Shown piece after piece: positions 23,839 through 38,132 of a stretch of 64,000 nt of DNA. Each line of letters starts with the position of its first letter. Position 1 is the first letter of the stretch. Position numbers and translations under genes: made by a program. The notes under the pieces were generated by a model that was not told where the DNA came from, made no database searches, and saw only the letters and a program-made list of their open reading frames with translations. Source of the stretch: Fibrobacterota bacterium (GTDB lineage: Bacteria > Fibrobacterota > Chitinivibrionia > Chitinivibrionales > FEN-1185); the NCBI GenBank assembly GCA_003165595.1, contig PLWQ01000019.1:1-64000 (forward strand). Direction: 5' to 3'.

Positions 23839-24288
23839 CGTGCCTCCCTTCGCATCTTTTTGAGGTAGGAAAATCCTCTCCTGGAACACCTTTCCGCGCC
23901 TTCAGATGTTGTAAATCAAATTAACAGATCATAAGGAAGCAACTACGATGCCATTCAAGATCGAGGGTGAAAAAGGGGGGTGAAACGACGGTGATGTTGG
24001 CCGTTCACGGGGGTGCGCTCGGTTCCCGTATGGAGCGCGAGACTTTTGGCAGGAATGATTATTGATTCCCGGATTCACCATTGATTTTGTCCAGCGCGAA
24101 CAAGCATCAGAGGGAAGCCTGGTTCTTTACCGGCGGGTCACGCGCCGTTTCTTGAGACGGGAGAACAATGGCATGGTAATAGCTGGCTCTTACATTCAGC
24201 GGAACCGGCTGCGCCGCCCAAGGATGTTCCATAGGAGCGTTGTCGGCCGCAGGAAGAAATTGTTTGTTGCTTGAAAGAAGGAGAAACA
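23839..24288. other. Intergenic region upstream of the ferredoxins
   Basis: 450 bases between divergent genes. Contains repeat family D copy 1 (24083-24137). No ORF with a credible ribosome site and no clear promoter was found, although promoters for both flanking genes are expected here. Confidence 0.45.
24083..24137 (+). repeat. Dispersed repeat family D, copy 1
   Basis: Shares CAGCGCGAACAAGCAT(C/T)AGAG and GAAGCCTG, then GGTTCTTTAC, with 31361-31424. The second copy has a few extra bases between the blocks. Copy 1 is upstream of a ferredoxin gene, copy 2 lies between two convergent stop codons. Confidence 0.7.
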
Positions 24289-24480
24289 ATGGAAGCCGCC
24301 GTGGACAGGAAGAGATGCCTCGGGTGTGAATCATGCTCGCAAATTTGCCCGGCGGTTTTTTCGATGGGTGAAGACGGTTTTGCTCTGGGCCCCTCGCGGC
24401 CCGTCAAGCCGGAACACGAAGACATTTGCAGGCTGGCCGACGAGAACTGCCCGATGGAAGCGATCCTCATCACGGAGTAA
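24289..24480 (+). CDS. Small [4Fe-4S] ferredoxin
   Basis: 63 residues from ATG 24289, chosen because AAGGAG sits at ideal spacing; an ATG six codons upstream is less likely. The motif CLGCESCSQICP (CxxCxxCxxxCP) plus a distal CP (DENCPMEAI) matches monocluster ferredoxins of the Thermotoga type. Low-potential electron carrier, cytoplasmic. Followed by a paralog 110 bases on and lying next to the Rnf operon, which is a ferredoxin:NAD oxidoreductase, so it is a plausible redox partner (inference from position). Confidence 0.88.
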   Translation: MEAAVDRKRCLGCESCSQICPAVFSMGEDGFALGPSRPVKPEHEDICRLADENCPMEAILITE

Positions 24481-24590: not shown

Positions 24591-24782
24591 ATGAAGGTTT
24601 CAATCGACGAAACATTATGTACAGGGTGTGAATTGTGCGTGGACATTTGCCCGCTGGTCTTTACAATGGAAGAGGGCCCTTGTCCCAAAGCTCCGCCATG
24701 GCCCGTTCCTGCAGAGCACGAACCGTGCTGCGCCGATGCCGCGGGGCGTTGTCCGGTGGAGGCGATAGCGGTGGCGGAGTGA
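24591..24782 (+). CDS. Second small [4Fe-4S] ferredoxin
   Basis: 63 residues from ATG 24591 behind AAGGAG. The N-terminal cluster motif is CTGCELCVDICP and the distal motif is RCPVEAI, as in the neighbour, but the loop is Pro/Cys-rich (EGPCPKAPPWP, EPCCADA), adding extra cysteines absent in the first. Clearly a paralog diverged in the loop; the two may differ in potential or partner. Same strand, 110-base gap, so probably co-transcribed. Confidence 0.87.
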   Translation: MKVSIDETLCTGCELCVDICPLVFTMEEGPCPKAPPWPVPAEHEPCCADAAGRCPVEAIAVAE

Positions 24783-25293: not shown

Positions 25294-26313
25294 CTAGACC
25301 CTCATCACCCTTCTCCTGCTGTCTTCAACGTATCCCAGACCGCCCCACATGGCGATGGCGTGGACGGGGCAGGTATTGAGGCAGAGGCCGCAGCCGATGC
25401 ACTTTTCCTTGTTGACAACATGGCGGCGTCCCTTTTCTCCGGCGATGGCATCGGTGGGGCACGAAGGCACGCAGTCGCCGCAGCCGGTGCAATTGGCGTC
25501 GATGTTCACCTTCGGGCGGAATTTGACGAGATCGACAAAACAGTTGGACGGACAGGTGTGTGCGGCTACGACGAAGTTCTCCCCAAGAGAGTAGTCAAGC
25601 ACGGGAAGGTTGTTTCCCATGGTGATGGCGCCGGAGGGAGTTGCCTTGACGCACAGAGTACAGGCGGTACAGCCGACGGCGCAATATTTCTTGACGCGCG
25701 TACCGCGGTCGTGGTTGACGCACGAGAGATATATCTTGTGCACCCTTGGAATCAGGTCGATGACGCTTCGTGGGCAGGCGCGCACGCACAACCCGCAGCC
25801 GGTGCAGGCGTCCGGGTCCACCACGGCGACCCCGTTGCCGCTCACGTGAATCGCGTCGAAGGGACACGCGGTAACGCAGCTTTCAAGGCCAAGGCAGCTA
25901 TCGGCGCAGGTCTTGTGGCCGTTGCCCGCAAGGATTGCCGCATGGCAATCCTTGATACCGTCGTACACGCAACGGTGCGCCGCCTCCTTGTCGCCGCCCT
26001 TGCAGTGGACAACGGCCATCACGGGGTCCAGCGGCGTTATTGCTATCCCCAGGATGTCGGCGATTTCATGCGCGGATTTGGCTCCTCCGGGAATGCAGCC
26101 TGTGGCTTCGGCCTTGCCTTCGGCGACCGCGCGCGCAAAGTCGGCGCAGGTGGCATACCCACATGCGCCGCAATCGACGTTCGGCAGCGCGAGGATGATC
26201 TTTTTAATATTCGCGTCGGCATGGGCGTAGGAAGTTCTCGACAAGGCTCCGAGCGCGGCGCCGAAAATGAGACCGAGAATCCCGAGAAAGAGGAGCGGAA
26301 GTGTAATCGCCAT
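25294..26313 (-). CDS. rnfB: Rnf complex subunit B, multi-cluster ferredoxin subunit
   Basis: 339 residues. Membrane anchor (about 4-26), then the Fe-S domain NVDCGACGYATCADF with C-x2-C-x4-C spacing, then a row of ferredoxin motifs: CADSCLGLESCVTACP, CTGCGLCVRACP, CAVGCTACTLC-VKATP, CTGCGDCVPSCP and CIGCGLCLNTCP. The third lacks its final Cys (T in place of C), so that cluster is degenerate. RnfB accepts electrons from ferredoxin for Na+/H+-coupled NAD reduction at the inner membrane. Last gene of rnfCDGEAB; 2 bases after rnfA. Confidence 0.93.
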   Translation of the reverse strand: MAITLPLLFLGILGLIFGAALGALSRTSYAHADANIKKIILALPNVDCGACGYATCADFARAVAEGKAEATGCIPGGAKSAHEIADILGIAITPLDPVMAVVHCKGGDKEAAHRCVYDGIKDCHAAILAGNGHKTCADSCLGLESCVTACPFDAIHVSGNGVAVVDPDACTGCGLCVRACPRSVIDLIPRVHKIYLSCVNHDRGTRVKKYCAVGCTACTLCVKATPSGAITMGNNLPVLDYSLGENFVVAAHTCPSNCFVDLVKFRPKVNIDANCTGCGDCVPSCPTDAIAGEKGRRHVVNKEKCIGCGLCLNTCPVHAIAMWGGLGYVEDSRRRVMRV

Positions 26314-26315
26314 GG

Positions 26316-26936
26316 CTACCCGCCGATTCCTTTAAGAATGTGAAATCCGCTGAATCCCAGGAATGCAAGCGACAACAGGCCGGCGCTTAAGAAAGCGGCC
26401 GGCAGTCCCCGGAGAGGGCGGGGCAATTCGGCGTATTCGAGCCGTTCCCGTATCGCAACCATCAGCACGAGCGCAAGTGTGTAACCCACGCCCGTGGCGC
26501 AGCCATTGACAAATGCAGACACCAGCGTCATGGGGCGGTTGGTGATCGGATTTGCCTGTACCGCCATGAGCGCCGCCGCGATAACAACGCAATTGGACGC
26601 CAGCATCGGAAGATAGACCCCGGTCCGTTCGTGCAGGGCCGGAGATAGTTTTTGCAGCGCCATTTCAGCGATCAAGGTGAGCGACACGATGACCATGACA
26701 AATACGAAAATCTGCAGGTACTCTGCCCTCAGGGGCAGCAGAATACCGTGGTCGATGATCCACGCAAGGGCCGATGCGATCGCCATCACCACCGTTGCCG
26801 ACAAACCCATGCCCAGAGCGCCCGGCAGCTTGTATGCCGCGCCGCACAGGGGGCATACGCCGATGCAGCGCGACAGCACGATGTTATTCACGAGGATCGA
26901 TGCGACGGAAAGTTCGAGCAACGGACCGGCGTTCAT
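26316..26936 (-). CDS. rnfA: Rnf complex membrane subunit A
   Basis: 206 residues from ATG 26936 with AAAGGAAAGG just upstream; the longer frame to 27017 is rejected. Six membrane helices; conserved LVNNIVLSRCIGVCPLCG with the Cys that helps bind the intramembrane Fe-S cluster shared with RnfE. Later segment NPITNRPMTLVSAFVNGCATGVGYTLAL is typical. The ATG overlaps the rnfE stop (TAATG), so translation is coupled. Confidence 0.95.
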   Translation of the reverse strand: MNAGPLLELSVASILVNNIVLSRCIGVCPLCGAAYKLPGALGMGLSATVVMAIASALAWIIDHGILLPLRAEYLQIFVFVMVIVSLTLIAEMALQKLSPALHERTGVYLPMLASNCVVIAAALMAVQANPITNRPMTLVSAFVNGCATGVGYTLALVLMVAIRERLEYAELPRPLRGLPAAFLSAGLLSLAFLGFSGFHILKGIGG

Positions 26937-27535
26937 TATGCCTTTTCCTTTCCTTTTTGCGCCATGAAGTAATTGTACAGTCCAAGCACAAACGCAAGGC
27001 TGAAAAACGCGCCGCACGCGGTGGTAAGCGCGAGGAACGGCTGGTGGCCCGGAATCACTTTCTGACCCATCAGGCTGAAATTACCGAACAGTTCCCGTAT
27101 CATGGAGCAGGCGAGAAGCGCAACGGTAAATCCGATCCCGACAACAATGGCGTCGAGCAGGGAGGCAATCGGTTTATTCTTGGCCGCAAAGGCGTCCGCT
27201 CTGTTGAGAATGAGACAATTGACCGCGATAAGAGGAACGTAGATTCCGAGCGCGGCGCTAAAATGCGGGGACCTGTTTAGAAGCAGCATGTTGGCCATGG
27301 ATGCGAAAGCGGTTATGATAAGGATCTGGCAGGGAATCCGCACCCGCTGCGCAATGAGGTTCCGCGTAATCGAAACCGCCAGGTTCGATGCCGCAAGAAC
27401 GGCCATCACCAGGCCGCTCATGACAAGCGCGTCGGCCATGGTTGCGGTCACGGCAAGGGCCGGGCACACGCCAAGGGCAACCCGGAACACCGGGTTTTGG
27501 GCAAAAATGCCTCGTCCGAATTCGCCTGCCGTCAT
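26936..27535 (-). CDS. rnfE: Rnf complex membrane subunit E
   Basis: 199 residues with six membrane helices. Conserved AQNPVFRVALGVCPALAVTAT carries the cluster Cys; VRIPCQILIITAFAS and IYVPLIAVNCLILNRADAFA are also characteristic. Paired with RnfA in the membrane, it transfers electrons across the bilayer. Overlaps the anchor-only rnfG ORF by 4 bases and rnfA by 1 base. Confidence 0.95.
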   Translation of the reverse strand: MTAGEFGRGIFAQNPVFRVALGVCPALAVTATMADALVMSGLVMAVLAASNLAVSITRNLIAQRVRIPCQILIITAFASMANMLLLNRSPHFSAALGIYVPLIAVNCLILNRADAFAAKNKPIASLLDAIVVGIGFTVALLACSMIRELFGNFSLMGQKVIPGHQPFLALTTACGAFFSLAFVLGLYNYFMAQKGKEKA

Positions 27536-27714
27536 TTGACCTCCGCCGGATGAGACGCAGCACTGTCTTTTGCCAAAGTCACCCCGTTTGAGGCGGAGGA
27601 GGCCGCGCCGCCGGGTGCGCTTGCACTGAGCGACGCATGAGTCAAGATGATGAGCATTCCCGCAAACACCGCAACTCCCATCATTGCGAGGGCCGACTTC
27701 ACAACGTCATTCAC
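27532..27714 (-). CDS. Anchor-only RnfG-position protein lacking the FMN domain
   Basis: 60 residues: a single N-terminal membrane helix (VVKSALAMMGVAVFAGMLII), then a short Ala/Ser-rich tail. It sits where rnfG sits in rnfCDGEAB, overlapping rnfD by 8 bases and rnfE by 4, so it is a neat coding unit and not decayed sequence. Normal RnfG is about 200 residues and has an FMN_bind domain with a flavinylated Thr in an (S/T)GAT motif; nothing of this is present. Identity as a truncated RnfG is inferred from position and the membrane segment. Alternatively an unrelated small subunit occupies the slot. Confidence 0.65.
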   Translation of the reverse strand: MNDVVKSALAMMGVAVFAGMLIILTHASLSASAPGGAASSASNGVTLAKDSAASHPAEVK

Positions 27715-28747
27715 GCTTCTTCCTTTCGCCGTACGGCCGGGGCCGGCAGTACCGGTCGAGGATCGGCACGCAGAAATTCATCAACAGAATGGCCCAACAC
27801 ACCCCGTCCGCATAGCCGCCGTATTTTCTGATGAGAAAGGTGATCACGCCGCATCCGATGCCGAACAAAATCCGCCCCCATGGCGTCATGGGAGAGGTAA
27901 CGGGATCGGCCGCCAGGAAGAAAGCCCCGAGCATGACGCCGCCGCCGAACACTTGATACAGGGGAACAATGAACGCTTCCGTTGATAAAACGTCGCCGGT
28001 CCCGTTGAAAATCCAAGACAACAGGAAAATGCTCCCGATAAAGGAGAAGGGCGTGCGGAAGCGGATAATGCCTTTATACAAAAGGAAGATTGCGCCAAGA
28101 AGTATTGCAATGCCCGATGTGGCTCCGAGGCTTCCGCCGACATTGCCCACAAGGAGGCTGCCGATGGCATCCTGGAGGTCGAGCGGATGGAAATTGCCGG
28201 TTGCCAGAGCGTTCTTGAAGTAAACAAGCGGGGTAGCTTCGGTGACTCCGTCGAGCGCTCTGGACAAGCCGAACATCGTTCCGTGCGCGGGAGCGGTAAA
28301 CGAGGTCATGGCGGCGGGGAAGGACACCATGAGGAATGCGCGGGCGGCCAGGGCGGGATTTACCAGGTTGTTGCCAAGCCCTCCGAACGCCATCTTGACA
28401 ACAGCAATGGCAAACACGCTCCCCGCGGCTCCCATCCAGAACGGCAGGTGCGCCGGCAGGGTAAAGGCGAACAGAAGTCCCGTAACCACCGCGCTCAAAT
28501 CGCTTGTGGAAAGTTGTTTACGGAAAAGAATACAGAGGAGCGCCTCGGTACCGACGGCGGCGGCCGTGCACACGAGGGTCAGAGCCAGTGCGCGCATCCC
28601 GAAGAACACCATCGACGCGACAAACGCGGGAATGAGCGCGATGATCACCGACAGCATAATGGTGTGCACGCTTTCGCTCTGCCGGATGTGGGGCGGCGTG
28701 GAAAGGTGCAAAAGCGGTTGCGGGCTTTCGGAAACGGGTTCGTTCAT
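27707..28747 (-). CDS. rnfD: Rnf complex membrane subunit D
   Basis: 346 residues from ATG 28747, which overlaps the rnfC stop (ATGA); the extended frame to 28864 is rejected. About nine membrane helices. The flavinylation region reads LDGVTEATPL, retaining the Thr in the A-T-P context that carries FMN in other RnfD proteins; GGLGNNLVNPALAARAF and FFLAADPVTSPMTPWGRI are conserved. So the RnfD flavin site appears intact even though the RnfG flavin domain is missing. Confidence 0.94.
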   Translation of the reverse strand: MNEPVSESPQPLLHLSTPPHIRQSESVHTIMLSVIIALIPAFVASMVFFGMRALALTLVCTAAAVGTEALLCILFRKQLSTSDLSAVVTGLLFAFTLPAHLPFWMGAAGSVFAIAVVKMAFGGLGNNLVNPALAARAFLMVSFPAAMTSFTAPAHGTMFGLSRALDGVTEATPLVYFKNALATGNFHPLDLQDAIGSLLVGNVGGSLGATSGIAILLGAIFLLYKGIIRFRTPFSFIGSIFLLSWIFNGTGDVLSTEAFIVPLYQVFGGGVMLGAFFLAADPVTSPMTPWGRILFGIGCGVITFLIRKYGGYADGVCWAILLMNFCVPILDRYCRPRPYGERKKRE

Positions 28748-30093
28748 GCCGCTGCTCCCGGCGCCGCGCGGGACGCTGCGGCGTTTTTCACCCGGTATTT
28801 CCCCAGTTTCATAAAGTGAACCAGATTGATTTTCGCCGGGCACACGTACGCGCAGGAACCGCATTCGATGCAGTCCGCAACGCCCCAGTGCTGCGCGTCA
28901 ATTACGTTGTTCTTATCAGTAAACCGCATGAGGTAGGCCGGAGACAAGCGCATGGGGCAGGCGCGCGTACACCTGCCGCAGCCGATGCAGTTATAGTTCC
29001 GTACGCCCGGAACAAGCGTATCAAAGGCGAAGACGCCGTAGGTGGTTTTGAGCACCGGCGCGTCAAGTTCGGCCTGGGCGCTGCCGCGCATGGGACCGCC
29101 CATCACCACTTTCTTTGTCCGCTGCAGGTCCGTACCGCAGAATTCGAGAACGTTTCTTACCGGCGTCCCCAGGCGAACCAGGAGGTTTTTGGGTGTGGAA
29201 ACGCAGGGTCCCCCGGCAGTGAGGGTACGCTGGTACAGGGGAGTGCCGCTCAGCACGGACCGCGCGATGGCGAGAATGGTGGCGGCGTTATGCACGGCGC
29301 AGCCGGCGTCCGCCGGAGTCCCGCCCGAGGGGATTTCTCTCTTTGTCAATGTGCGAACAAGGATCTTCTCGTCGCTCTGCGGGTATTTCGGTCTTACCAG
29401 GGCGACGGATAGATCGTGAAATTTCTCATCCTTGCACGCGTCCGAAAGCGAGGACGCAACATCGGCGGCGGAACTGTCCGCTACAACGATTGCCCGTTTC
29501 GCTCCCAGAATCTTCCTGACGATAAGGGCGCCGGTAAGAATTTCGTCGGTGTGTTCTTTTACGAGGCGCAAGTCGGCGACCGCGAAGGGCTCACACCCGG
29601 TGCAATCGACGATAACCGTGTCCACCGGATTATTCGCCGGCGGAAGGAGATTCACCTGGGCCGGAACGCCCGTCCCGCCCATTCCCACAACTCCACAGGA
29701 AAAGATTTTCCGCACAATTTCCTGTGGAGCGGCCTCTTTCCAGGGGGTGTCGATGCCGGCCGTCTCGACGGCCAAATCCTGGCCGTCATTTTCTATTTCT
29801 GCGGCGAGAACGTGCGCGCCCAGCGGGTGGGGAAAGTTCGCCACCGAAAGCACGACGCCGGATACCGACGAATGTACAGCTGCCGAATCAGGAGACGATG
29901 GTTCCGCGATCAATTGGCCCAGGCGCACCCTGTCCCCGCGTTTCACAAGGATGCTGGCGCAGGGGCCCGTGTGCTGTAGAACCGGGATTATGACTTTGGC
30001 GGGCGGCGGCAGCACTTCTATGGGTGAGTCTGCCGTGGGGTTTTTGTACTTGGGAGGGTGAATGCCACCGCGAAAACCGAGTGACCGGAACAA
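28744..30093 (-). CDS. rnfC: Rnf complex subunit C, NADH/FMN-binding
   Basis: 449 residues from TTG 30093, chosen because homologs start just before the conserved FRGGIHP and because AAAGGA lies upstream; the ATG at 30216 would add 41 non-conserved residues. Contains the NADH/flavin domain (CGVVGMGGTGVPAQVNL; VIVDCTGCEP, TAGGPCVS) and two ferredoxin motifs, CIGCGRCTRACP and CIECGSCAYVCP. RnfC reduces NAD at the cytoplasmic face. First gene of the operon; the preceding 159 bases should hold its promoter, none obvious. Confidence 0.94.
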   Translation of the reverse strand: MFRSLGFRGGIHPPKYKNPTADSPIEVLPPPAKVIIPVLQHTGPCASILVKRGDRVRLGQLIAEPSSPDSAAVHSSVSGVVLSVANFPHPLGAHVLAAEIENDGQDLAVETAGIDTPWKEAAPQEIVRKIFSCGVVGMGGTGVPAQVNLLPPANNPVDTVIVDCTGCEPFAVADLRLVKEHTDEILTGALIVRKILGAKRAIVVADSSAADVASSLSDACKDEKFHDLSVALVRPKYPQSDEKILVRTLTKREIPSGGTPADAGCAVHNAATILAIARSVLSGTPLYQRTLTAGGPCVSTPKNLLVRLGTPVRNVLEFCGTDLQRTKKVVMGGPMRGSAQAELDAPVLKTTYGVFAFDTLVPGVRNYNCIGCGRCTRACPMRLSPAYLMRFTDKNNVIDAQHWGVADCIECGSCAYVCPAKINLVHFMKLGKYRVKNAAASRAAPGAAA

Positions 30094-30252
30094 TACCTTT
30101 GTCCTTTGATGTGAGAAGTGCGAGAAGAAACGATAGTGCTCCGCGCATTGCCCGCATGCCGGACGCTCTATCAAATTTGGTGAAATTAAAGTACGTCCGG
30201 TGCGACATGAAGTCAAGGTAAAATCTTCGGGCAGCCGTGCGCCCGAGACGAT

Positions 30253-30606
30253 CTATAGCGTGTTGTTTTCCGCCTCTTTCCAGAACGCGTCTTCTGATGA
30301 AAAAAGAGGGATCACTTTGCCGATTTCAAGGACATAGAATACGTCCCACACGTTTCCCGCCGGGCAAATAATCGCCATTGTCGCGCCGCTTTTCTTCGCG
30401 AGGTACGACAGCTTGAGAATGGTTGACAAAGAATAGCTTGCAATGATCTTGAGCCCGCTCATATTGAGTACAAAAGCCTTTTCACCGAGGCTGAGATGTT
30501 CTCCAAACGCCACCTTGAGCTGGCGGGAACCGTCGTAATCGAGGTCGCCGCTCAGATGGAAAAAGAGACGGTCGTTTTTCTTTTCCGGGGTAAGTACAAA
30601 TTGCAT
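30253..30606 (-). CDS. STAS-domain protein (anti-sigma factor antagonist-like)
   Basis: 117 residues forming one STAS domain: FFHLSGDLDYDGSRQLKVAF at the start, KAFVLNMSGLKIIASYSLSTILKL at the usual switch region. In classic antagonists the switch is D-S-S-G with a phosphorylated Ser; here the aligned residues are A-S-Y-S, with Tyr at the usual phosphosite. It may be regulated differently or act as a constitutive binding module. No anti-sigma kinase or phosphatase gene is adjacent. Lies between rnfC and DUF4416. Confidence 0.82.
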   Translation of the reverse strand: MQFVLTPEKKNDRLFFHLSGDLDYDGSRQLKVAFGEHLSLGEKAFVLNMSGLKIIASYSLSTILKLSYLAKKSGATMAIICPAGNVWDVFYVLEIGKVIPLFSSEDAFWKEAENNTL

Positions 30607-30815
30607 GGCAGCCTTTATGTTTGAGGAAACAACTATAAAATCGTATTTGCCCCGCGCAGCGGAAATCAGAATCGGCAGGTAATTGCGAATTCCGCCCGCA
30701 TGTATTTTCTCATCAGTTGGAGACTTCGATTTTTTCCATTGCAGGTTGCGCAGCTAGATCTTCATTTTGTGCTGCATGGCCGCCGGGGCACAGACAATCG
30801 CAAAGAGGAGTGGCT

Positions 30816-31361
30816 GTGGGAGCGGCAACGATACCGGACAAAGTCAAACTGTTTGCGGCGATCACGTTCGCGCCGGAGGCGCGCATCGCGGAGGTAACGT
30901 CGGCTCTGGCGCGTTCCTTTGGCTCCGTTGACTTTTCCTATGGTCCGGTTCCCTTTGATTTTACCGACTACTATGGAGATGAAATGGGGCGGGGCCTCAG
31001 GAAAATGTACTTGACATTTGAAACTCCCGCGGAACGCGAAGCGCTGTCGGGCGTTAAGGTCTTCACCAACGACCTGGAATGTCGGTATGCCGCGAAAGGC
31101 AGGCGTGCGGTCAATATAGATCCGGGGTATATTGCAGCCGACAAGCTCGTGCTCGCGAGCACCAAGGATTTTTATCACCGCGTGTACCTCTCGCAGGGAA
31201 TTTTCGCCGAGGTCACGCTTCATTACCGCAAGGGGATCTACCGGTTTTTTTCCTGGACGTTTCCCGATTACCGCGAGCCGGCCTTTCTCGAATTTCTCCA
31301 GCGGGTTCGCGCTCGCTATGTAAAAACCGCGCGCGAAGCGCGTGAGTCACGGCGCGGGTGA
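30816..31361 (+). CDS. DUF4416 family protein
   Basis: 181 residues from GTG 30816, supported by AGAGGAG 5 bases upstream; the frame is open further back without a ribosome site. Matches the DUF4416 pattern: KLFAAITFAPEAR, FSYGPVPFDFTDYYGDEMG, FTNDLE, VNIDPGYIAADKLVLASTKD, GIFAEVTLHYRKG and FPDYR. Conserved acidic and basic residues suggest an enzyme, but function is unknown. No clear operon context; it converges with osmC, and repeat D copy 2 begins at its stop. Confidence 0.88.
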   Translation: MGAATIPDKVKLFAAITFAPEARIAEVTSALARSFGSVDFSYGPVPFDFTDYYGDEMGRGLRKMYLTFETPAEREALSGVKVFTNDLECRYAAKGRRAVNIDPGYIAADKLVLASTKDFYHRVYLSQGIFAEVTLHYRKGIYRFFSWTFPDYREPAFLEFLQRVRARYVKTAREARESRRG

Positions 31362-38058: not shown

Positions 38059-38132
38059 TGGGCGCACCTGGATTCGAACCAGGGATCTCTGCGATGTGAA
38101 CGCAGCGCTTTAACCAGCTGAGCCATACGCCC
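38059..38132 (-). tRNA. tRNA-Val (anticodon CAC)
   Basis: The reverse complement folds as GGGCGTA/TGCGCCC acceptor (one T-G pair), D arm GCTCAGCTGGTTAAAGC (one D-stem mismatch), anticodon stem CTGCG/CGCAG with loop TTCACAT giving CAC, and T arm CCTGG-TTCGAAT-CCAGG. Discriminator A; CCA is not encoded. CAC reads GUG valine codons. Stands alone on the minus strand, upstream of the AraC-type gene. Confidence 0.95.

Follow-up and report, generated by a model that had tools for sequence, protein, structure and literature searches.

A putative anchor-only RnfG in a reduced Rnf operon of the Chitinivibrionales

The stretch of DNA analyzed here, a window of 64,000 nucleotides from a Fibrobacterota bacterium of the order Chitinivibrionales, carries a minus-strand Rnf operon whose genes were identified by Pfam and NCBIfam searches (Table 1). 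All six positions of the order rnfC-D-G-E-A-B are present, the G position being occupied only by a stub gene. The sequence aaggaag lies shortly before the GTG start of this gene, and its frame overlaps rnfD (which ends at 27707) by 8 bases and rnfE (which starts at 27535) by 4 bases. The 8-base overlap is typical and recurs in many relatives whose RnfG is normal.

Table 1. The Rnf operon and adjoining genes in the window. Changes were counted at alignment columns with a conservation of at least 96% among intact relatives.
Gene	Position	Strand	Length and features	Near-invariant residues changed
DUF4416-type neighbor	30717..31361	+	divergent from the rnfC side; presumed family	
STAS-domain gene	30253..30606	-	between rnfC and the divergent DUF4416-type gene	
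rnfC	28744..30096	-	450 aa, GTG start inferred; both [4Fe-4S] motifs retained, NADH/FMN loop altered	22/105
rnfD	27707..28747	-	346 aa; FMN Thr (ATPL) and riboflavin Asn/Asp retained	9/85
rnfG stub	27532..27714	-	60 codons, GTG start; membrane stalk and short Ala/Ser tail, without FMN domain	
rnfE	26936..27535	-	199 aa; both cluster Cys retained	24/70
rnfA	26316..26936	-	206 aa; both cluster Cys retained	30/77
rnfB	25294..26313	-	339 aa; 29/29 conserved Cys retained	6/93

The stub protein consists of a single hydrophobic helix (approximately residues 4-26) and, behind it, a tail rich in Ala and Ser, and it gave no match in Pfam or NCBIfam. For the comparison with RnfG N-termini that a sequence-only reading of this DNA had proposed, a stalk profile was built from 30 intact RnfG proteins, of which the first 40 residues were used. 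The stub scored 12-13 bits against it, compared with 4.3 bits for the second-best ORF of the window and 9.9 bits for the best of about 2000 shuffles. Thus, the N-terminal membrane stalk of the RnfG family (PF04205) is present, with a modest score and in the agreeing position, and the FMN_bind domain with its [S/T]GA[S/T] motif is absent. The stub resembles RnfG/NqrC proteins in position, in the rnfD overlap and in the stalk helix, but it lacks their entire FMN-binding domain together with the flavinylated Thr. The coordinates, the single helix and the profile score agree with the sequence-only reading, which had placed an anchor-only RnfG overlapping both neighbors in the G slot; judged by its sequence, the 60-codon gene is an RnfG cut back to its stalk.

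The remaining genes share gene order and subunit homology with the Rnf complexes of Acetobacterium woodii (9ERI), Clostridium tetanomorphum (7ZC6) and Azotobacter vinelandii (8AHX). The two Cys ligands of the [2Fe-2S] cluster in each of RnfA and RnfE, the [4Fe-4S] ligands of RnfB and RnfC (29 RnfB Cys and 8 RnfC cluster Cys) and the riboflavin residues of RnfD are in place. The flavinylation Thr of RnfD, which had been said to be kept, is indeed there, as the T of an EATPL motif that aligns with A. woodii T156. Unlike the known complexes, this one has an RnfG without the covalent FMN domain, an altered NADH loop in RnfC and an RnfA and RnfE from which many conserved residues are gone.

We compared the locus with 40 other genomes of the order, 39 of which gave an RnfD-like match. 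The genus has one further genome, that of a sister species (G001) whose RnfD is 67% identical to that of the window genome (G000). Its G slot holds a 65-codon stub with both overlaps identical to those described above, and the match between the two stubs was beaten by only 3 of 5000 shuffles. All operon genes are open and the overlaps are kept in both species at 52-67% identity, and no FMN_bind protein of the RnfG type was found in G001. Because the sister species has the same layout, the stub is neither an assembly error nor a product of fresh decay; that it had not decayed was what the sequence-only reading had supposed from the overlaps. The slot is thus short in both genomes of the genus, but it is not always short among relatives: outside the genus a normal RnfG of 201-266 aa occurs in every complete operon examined except those of four genomes (G002, G005, G030 and G037), which indicates that the short form is derived.

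These four exceptions are reduced in different ways. G002, of the same family, has a 214-aa RnfG without an FMN_bind match or flavinylation motif, its RnfD Thr is lost and no ApbE was found in its genome, which is 79% complete. G005 has a 174-aa RnfG without detectable FMN_bind, and directly after its rnfB lies a gene for a small FMN_bind protein of 133 aa that has a membrane anchor and an AGAT motif (L060 3764-4162, plus strand), so that this pair could represent a split RnfG. The sister species encodes, elsewhere in its genome, a protein 41% identical to this small FMN_bind protein, which is absent from the window genome (best match E 0.77). In G030 (L057 4986-9654) there is no rnfG, the cluster Cys are lost in both RnfE and RnfA and the FMN loop of RnfD is deleted; neither ApbE nor FMN_bind was found in that genome, and its genus-mate G035 (82% complete) has no detectable Rnf. 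The G037 locus (L100 2222-5604) consists of rnfC-rnfD-rnfB only and its RnfB lacks the N-terminal membrane helix; further Rnf/Nqr-type loci are found elsewhere in that genome. The genomes that retain the RnfD Thr (G000, G001, G005 and G037) have an ApbE, and in those that have lost it (G002 and G030) none was found.

In a tree of concatenated RnfB, RnfC and RnfD all six reduced loci group together. In the RnfB tree, by contrast, the C-D-B locus of G037 falls among its own family and an AU test rejects a single clade (p 0.014), so that inheritance of one reduced Rnf can be dismissed and the grouping in the concatenated tree is probably a long-branch effect. The trees indicate at least two independent reductions in the order. 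The divergent gene on the rnfC side, whose product we take to be of the DUF4416 family, adjoins rnfC in many intact loci and in reduced relatives. This common neighbor points to one ancestral locus reduced in place and argues against the acquisition of an Rnf from elsewhere by horizontal transfer. The STAS-domain gene next to rnfC occurs in all three genomes of the family (61% identical in G001 and 28% in G002), with one weak match only (22%) among the remaining loci. A wider survey covered 80 loci from other phyla and from the same phylum in a species-level genome collection. An RnfG match lay within 77 of the 78 usable loci, in one of them away from the usual place, the sole exception being the G037 locus, and therefore the anchor-only RnfG is not a widespread form.

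The sequence-only reading had described the stub as a clean ORF, and its 60-codon frame is open, but the operon is otherwise not normal, as rnfA, rnfE and rnfC are unusually divergent (Table 1). At the columns used for the counts in the table, the far outgroup G041 has 7 changes in RnfA, 11 in RnfE, 4 in RnfC, 6 in RnfD and 14 in RnfB. Relative to an expectation based on RnfB, identity to intact relatives was about 23 points lower for RnfA and RnfE (residual sd about 4), about 10 points lower for RnfC (sd 2.7) and 4.5 points lower for RnfD (sd 3.4). Between the window genome and the sister species the corresponding deviations were -17 for RnfA, -20 for RnfE and +2 for RnfD; the rate of RnfD between the two stub species is about normal. 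Among the residues of RnfA and RnfE needed for pumping in A. woodii (PMC11889175), K32 is replaced by Y, L108 by M/S and T111 by S/A in RnfA, and E115 by D in RnfE; R67 is replaced by A in the sister species.

In RnfC the sequence GGTGVPAQVNL stands in place of the GGA(S/G)FPTHVKL of relatives, and GCEP in place of ECEP. The glycine loop of the NADH/FMN site is therefore partly kept, with Phe changed to Val, Lys to Asn and the first Glu of ECEP to Gly; the assignment of these residues to the NADH site rests on the homology of NuoF and RnfC. Wherever the RnfC of a reduced operon could be aligned (that of G005 was not), the near-invariant loop Phe is either replaced or deleted. Scores against PF01512 were 185-190 bits in intact relatives, 121 in the window genome, 140 in G001, 130 in G037, 104 in G002, 60 in G030 and 38 in G005. 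Across the reduced operons, many residues that are invariant elsewhere have been lost from RnfA, RnfE and RnfC, and the clusters of RnfB are retained.

One reservation of the sequence-only reading was that a full-length rnfG might lie elsewhere in the genome. Profile searches of the window genome (5.39 Mb in 42 contigs, 98% complete) found no second or displaced rnfG: FMN_bind gave no match at E<=0.001 and none above the cut-off at E<=10, and no second Rnf or Nqr was found, the genome having one RnfA/RnfE pair and one RnfD. The ApbE for which a search had also been advised is present in one full-length copy with a lipoprotein-like signal. A DUF2271-like protein containing DAVSRATP (L197 1399-2688, minus strand, G000:C28) scored 25.0 bits in the genome search and 22.8 in hmmscan, just below the cut-off of 27.3, and could be another ApbE substrate. 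We also noticed a possibly secreted or outer-membrane protein (L207 1009-1869, minus strand, G000:C22) with a bare flavinylation-like motif, VDAVSGATKTS, and no FMN_bind domain; this motif may be due to chance. Given these other possible targets, ApbE by itself is no proof that RnfD is flavinylated. ApbE of other bacteria uses DUF2271 as a substrate, and genomes with ApbE but without FMN_bind made up 17% of a survey, or 4% once DUF2271 and DUF3570 were counted as substrates (PMC8238504). A multihaem cytochrome was considered as a replacement for the missing domain and rejected, as the family searched (PF14537) has no match in the window genome.

RnfG is generally regarded as indispensable, and there is no agreement on how electron flow in Rnf is coupled to ion pumping, the ion path being placed either in RnfA/E or in RnfD. 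In the known electron path, ferredoxin reduces RnfB and the RnfA/E cluster takes the electrons across the membrane; RnfG then hands them, by means of its mobile FMN domain, to the RnfD flavins, from which they reach RnfC and NAD+ (PMC11889175). In A. woodii, RnfG T185A, which lacks FMN, and RnfG Y113A abolish activity and growth, including ferredoxin-to-NAD activity (PMC11889175). Because removal of the RnfG flavin has this effect in Acetobacterium, the canonical U-shaped path cannot, by analogy, run unchanged in this genus of anaerobes. The sequence-only reading had argued that, if no full-length RnfG exists elsewhere, electrons would have to take a different route. The published mutants support the part of this claim that concerns the canonical route. 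Transmembrane transfer by another route is one possibility; the relaxed RnfA, RnfE and RnfC, the altered NADH site and the parallel losses of G, E and A make changed or lost pumping at least as likely.

We propose that the ancestral Rnf operon of the order was reduced in place and that RnfG would have been trimmed until only its stalk helix was left. This helix is most likely retained because it packs against RnfB, RnfA and RnfE within the membrane. The RnfG helix of known complexes forms a bundle with helices of these three subunits (PMC9588780), and V23 and A27 of Bacteroides RnfG face RnfA/RnfE (PMC12718326). From this bundling and from the inactivity of the RnfG mutants we infer a structural role for the stub helix and a broken pumping cycle. 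Without the mobile FMN domain, the RnfA/E [2Fe-2S] cluster would have no known route of transfer to the RnfD flavin, so that ion pumping driven by electron flow from ferredoxin to NAD+ has probably been lost. Three parts would still be under selection: RnfB with its full set of clusters, the RnfC clusters and the site in RnfD that holds riboflavin. That they are kept in every reduced operon that could be checked suggests an electron-transfer role on the ferredoxin side with a changed acceptor, probably something other than NAD+ bound as in canonical Rnf. We would put at about even the chances that the stub is a structural element within a repurposed, probably non-pumping Rnf centered on RnfB, RnfC and RnfD. 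The stub in both genomes of the genus, the absence of FMN_bind, the unequal divergence of the subunits and the parallel reductions in relatives are observations; the structural role, the loss of pumping and the change of partner are inferred.

Counting against such a repurposed Rnf, all four RnfA/E cluster Cys, the FMN Thr of RnfD and ApbE are retained, for which there would be no need if the transmembrane path had been given up altogether. A direct cytosolic route between RnfB and RnfC would be without structural support, as their nearest clusters in A. woodii lie more than 30 A apart (PMC11889175). The main rival explanation, unlikely but deserving serious attention, draws on the same retained residues: RnfG may be split, with the stalk staying in place and a separate periplasmic flavoprotein or other carrier acting in trans, so that electrons would pass from RnfB through RnfA/E to the carrier and on to RnfD and RnfC. 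G005, with its small FMN_bind protein beside an FMN-less RnfG, is a concrete example, the sister species encodes the related protein, and the DUF2271-like protein of the window genome falls only just below the cut-off. Yet the window genome has neither the small FMN_bind protein nor any other FMN_bind match above the cut-off, nor a PF14537 cytochrome, and a carrier in trans leaves unexplained the drift of the RnfC NADH loop and of the RnfA/E pumping residues.

A third possibility, which we regard as improbable, is slow decay of an Rnf that is redundant in these fermenters and is being lost, the open frames being remnants of little function. The graded series from intact operons through the stub and the absence of RnfG to the absence of detectable Rnf in G035 would fit, and five further NuoF/HydB-like proteins of the window genome could link NADH and ferredoxin. 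This is hard to reconcile with operon genes that are all open, with overlaps kept in two diverged species, with the full set of RnfB Cys and with the normal rate of RnfD. An artefact, that is, a full-length rnfG in the 2% missing from the 42-contig assembly or a misassembled slot, is very improbable, since the independent genome of the genus has the same stub in the same place and likewise no RnfG-type FMN_bind. Returning to the repurposed Rnf, a broader view, which we advance tentatively and rate somewhat below even, is that the periplasmic flavin branch was removed repeatedly in the order, so that selection would now maintain a membrane-bound RnfB-RnfC-RnfD electron module that has a new partner and does not pump, for which the RnfG stub would be an intermediate stage, or else that the RnfG flavin moved to a separate small protein.

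Rnf as such is well known, and we found no report in the open-access literature of an Rnf with an anchor-only RnfG or without the RnfG domain. The closest described partial systems lose other parts and retain FMN_bind (PMC8238504, PMC11334425). Those of Meheust et al. resemble the present case in having a partial Nqr/Rnf apparatus, but in them the FMN_bind subunit is present and works with an RnfD-type membrane domain that is fused to PF00175 (PMC8238504); here no such fusion with an FMN_bind partner was found, and the FMN_bind part is lost while the other Rnf subunits all remain. The Rsx system of Escherichia coli, which reduces SoxR, is likewise an Rnf complex with an output other than energy conservation from NAD+ reduction, an output that for the present operon is proposed from sequence; unlike the stub, RsxG retains its flavinylation motif (PMC12174285). 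A lineage without the RnfG flavin but with the rest kept, together with relatives at successive stages of reduction, amounts to a natural set of subunit deletions, in which the reduced operons indicate which parts depend on the shuttle (RnfA, RnfE and the RnfC NADH loop) and which are independent of it (RnfB and most of RnfD). For genome-based metabolic reconstruction it means that gene order alone is no proof of a working Rnf pump.

Two small single-cluster ferredoxin ORFs, absent next to rnfB in the sister species, lie in tandem at 24271-24480 and about 24591-24782 on the plus strand, convergent with rnfB. The sole Rfam match of the window is a tRNA gene at 38059-38132 on the minus strand.
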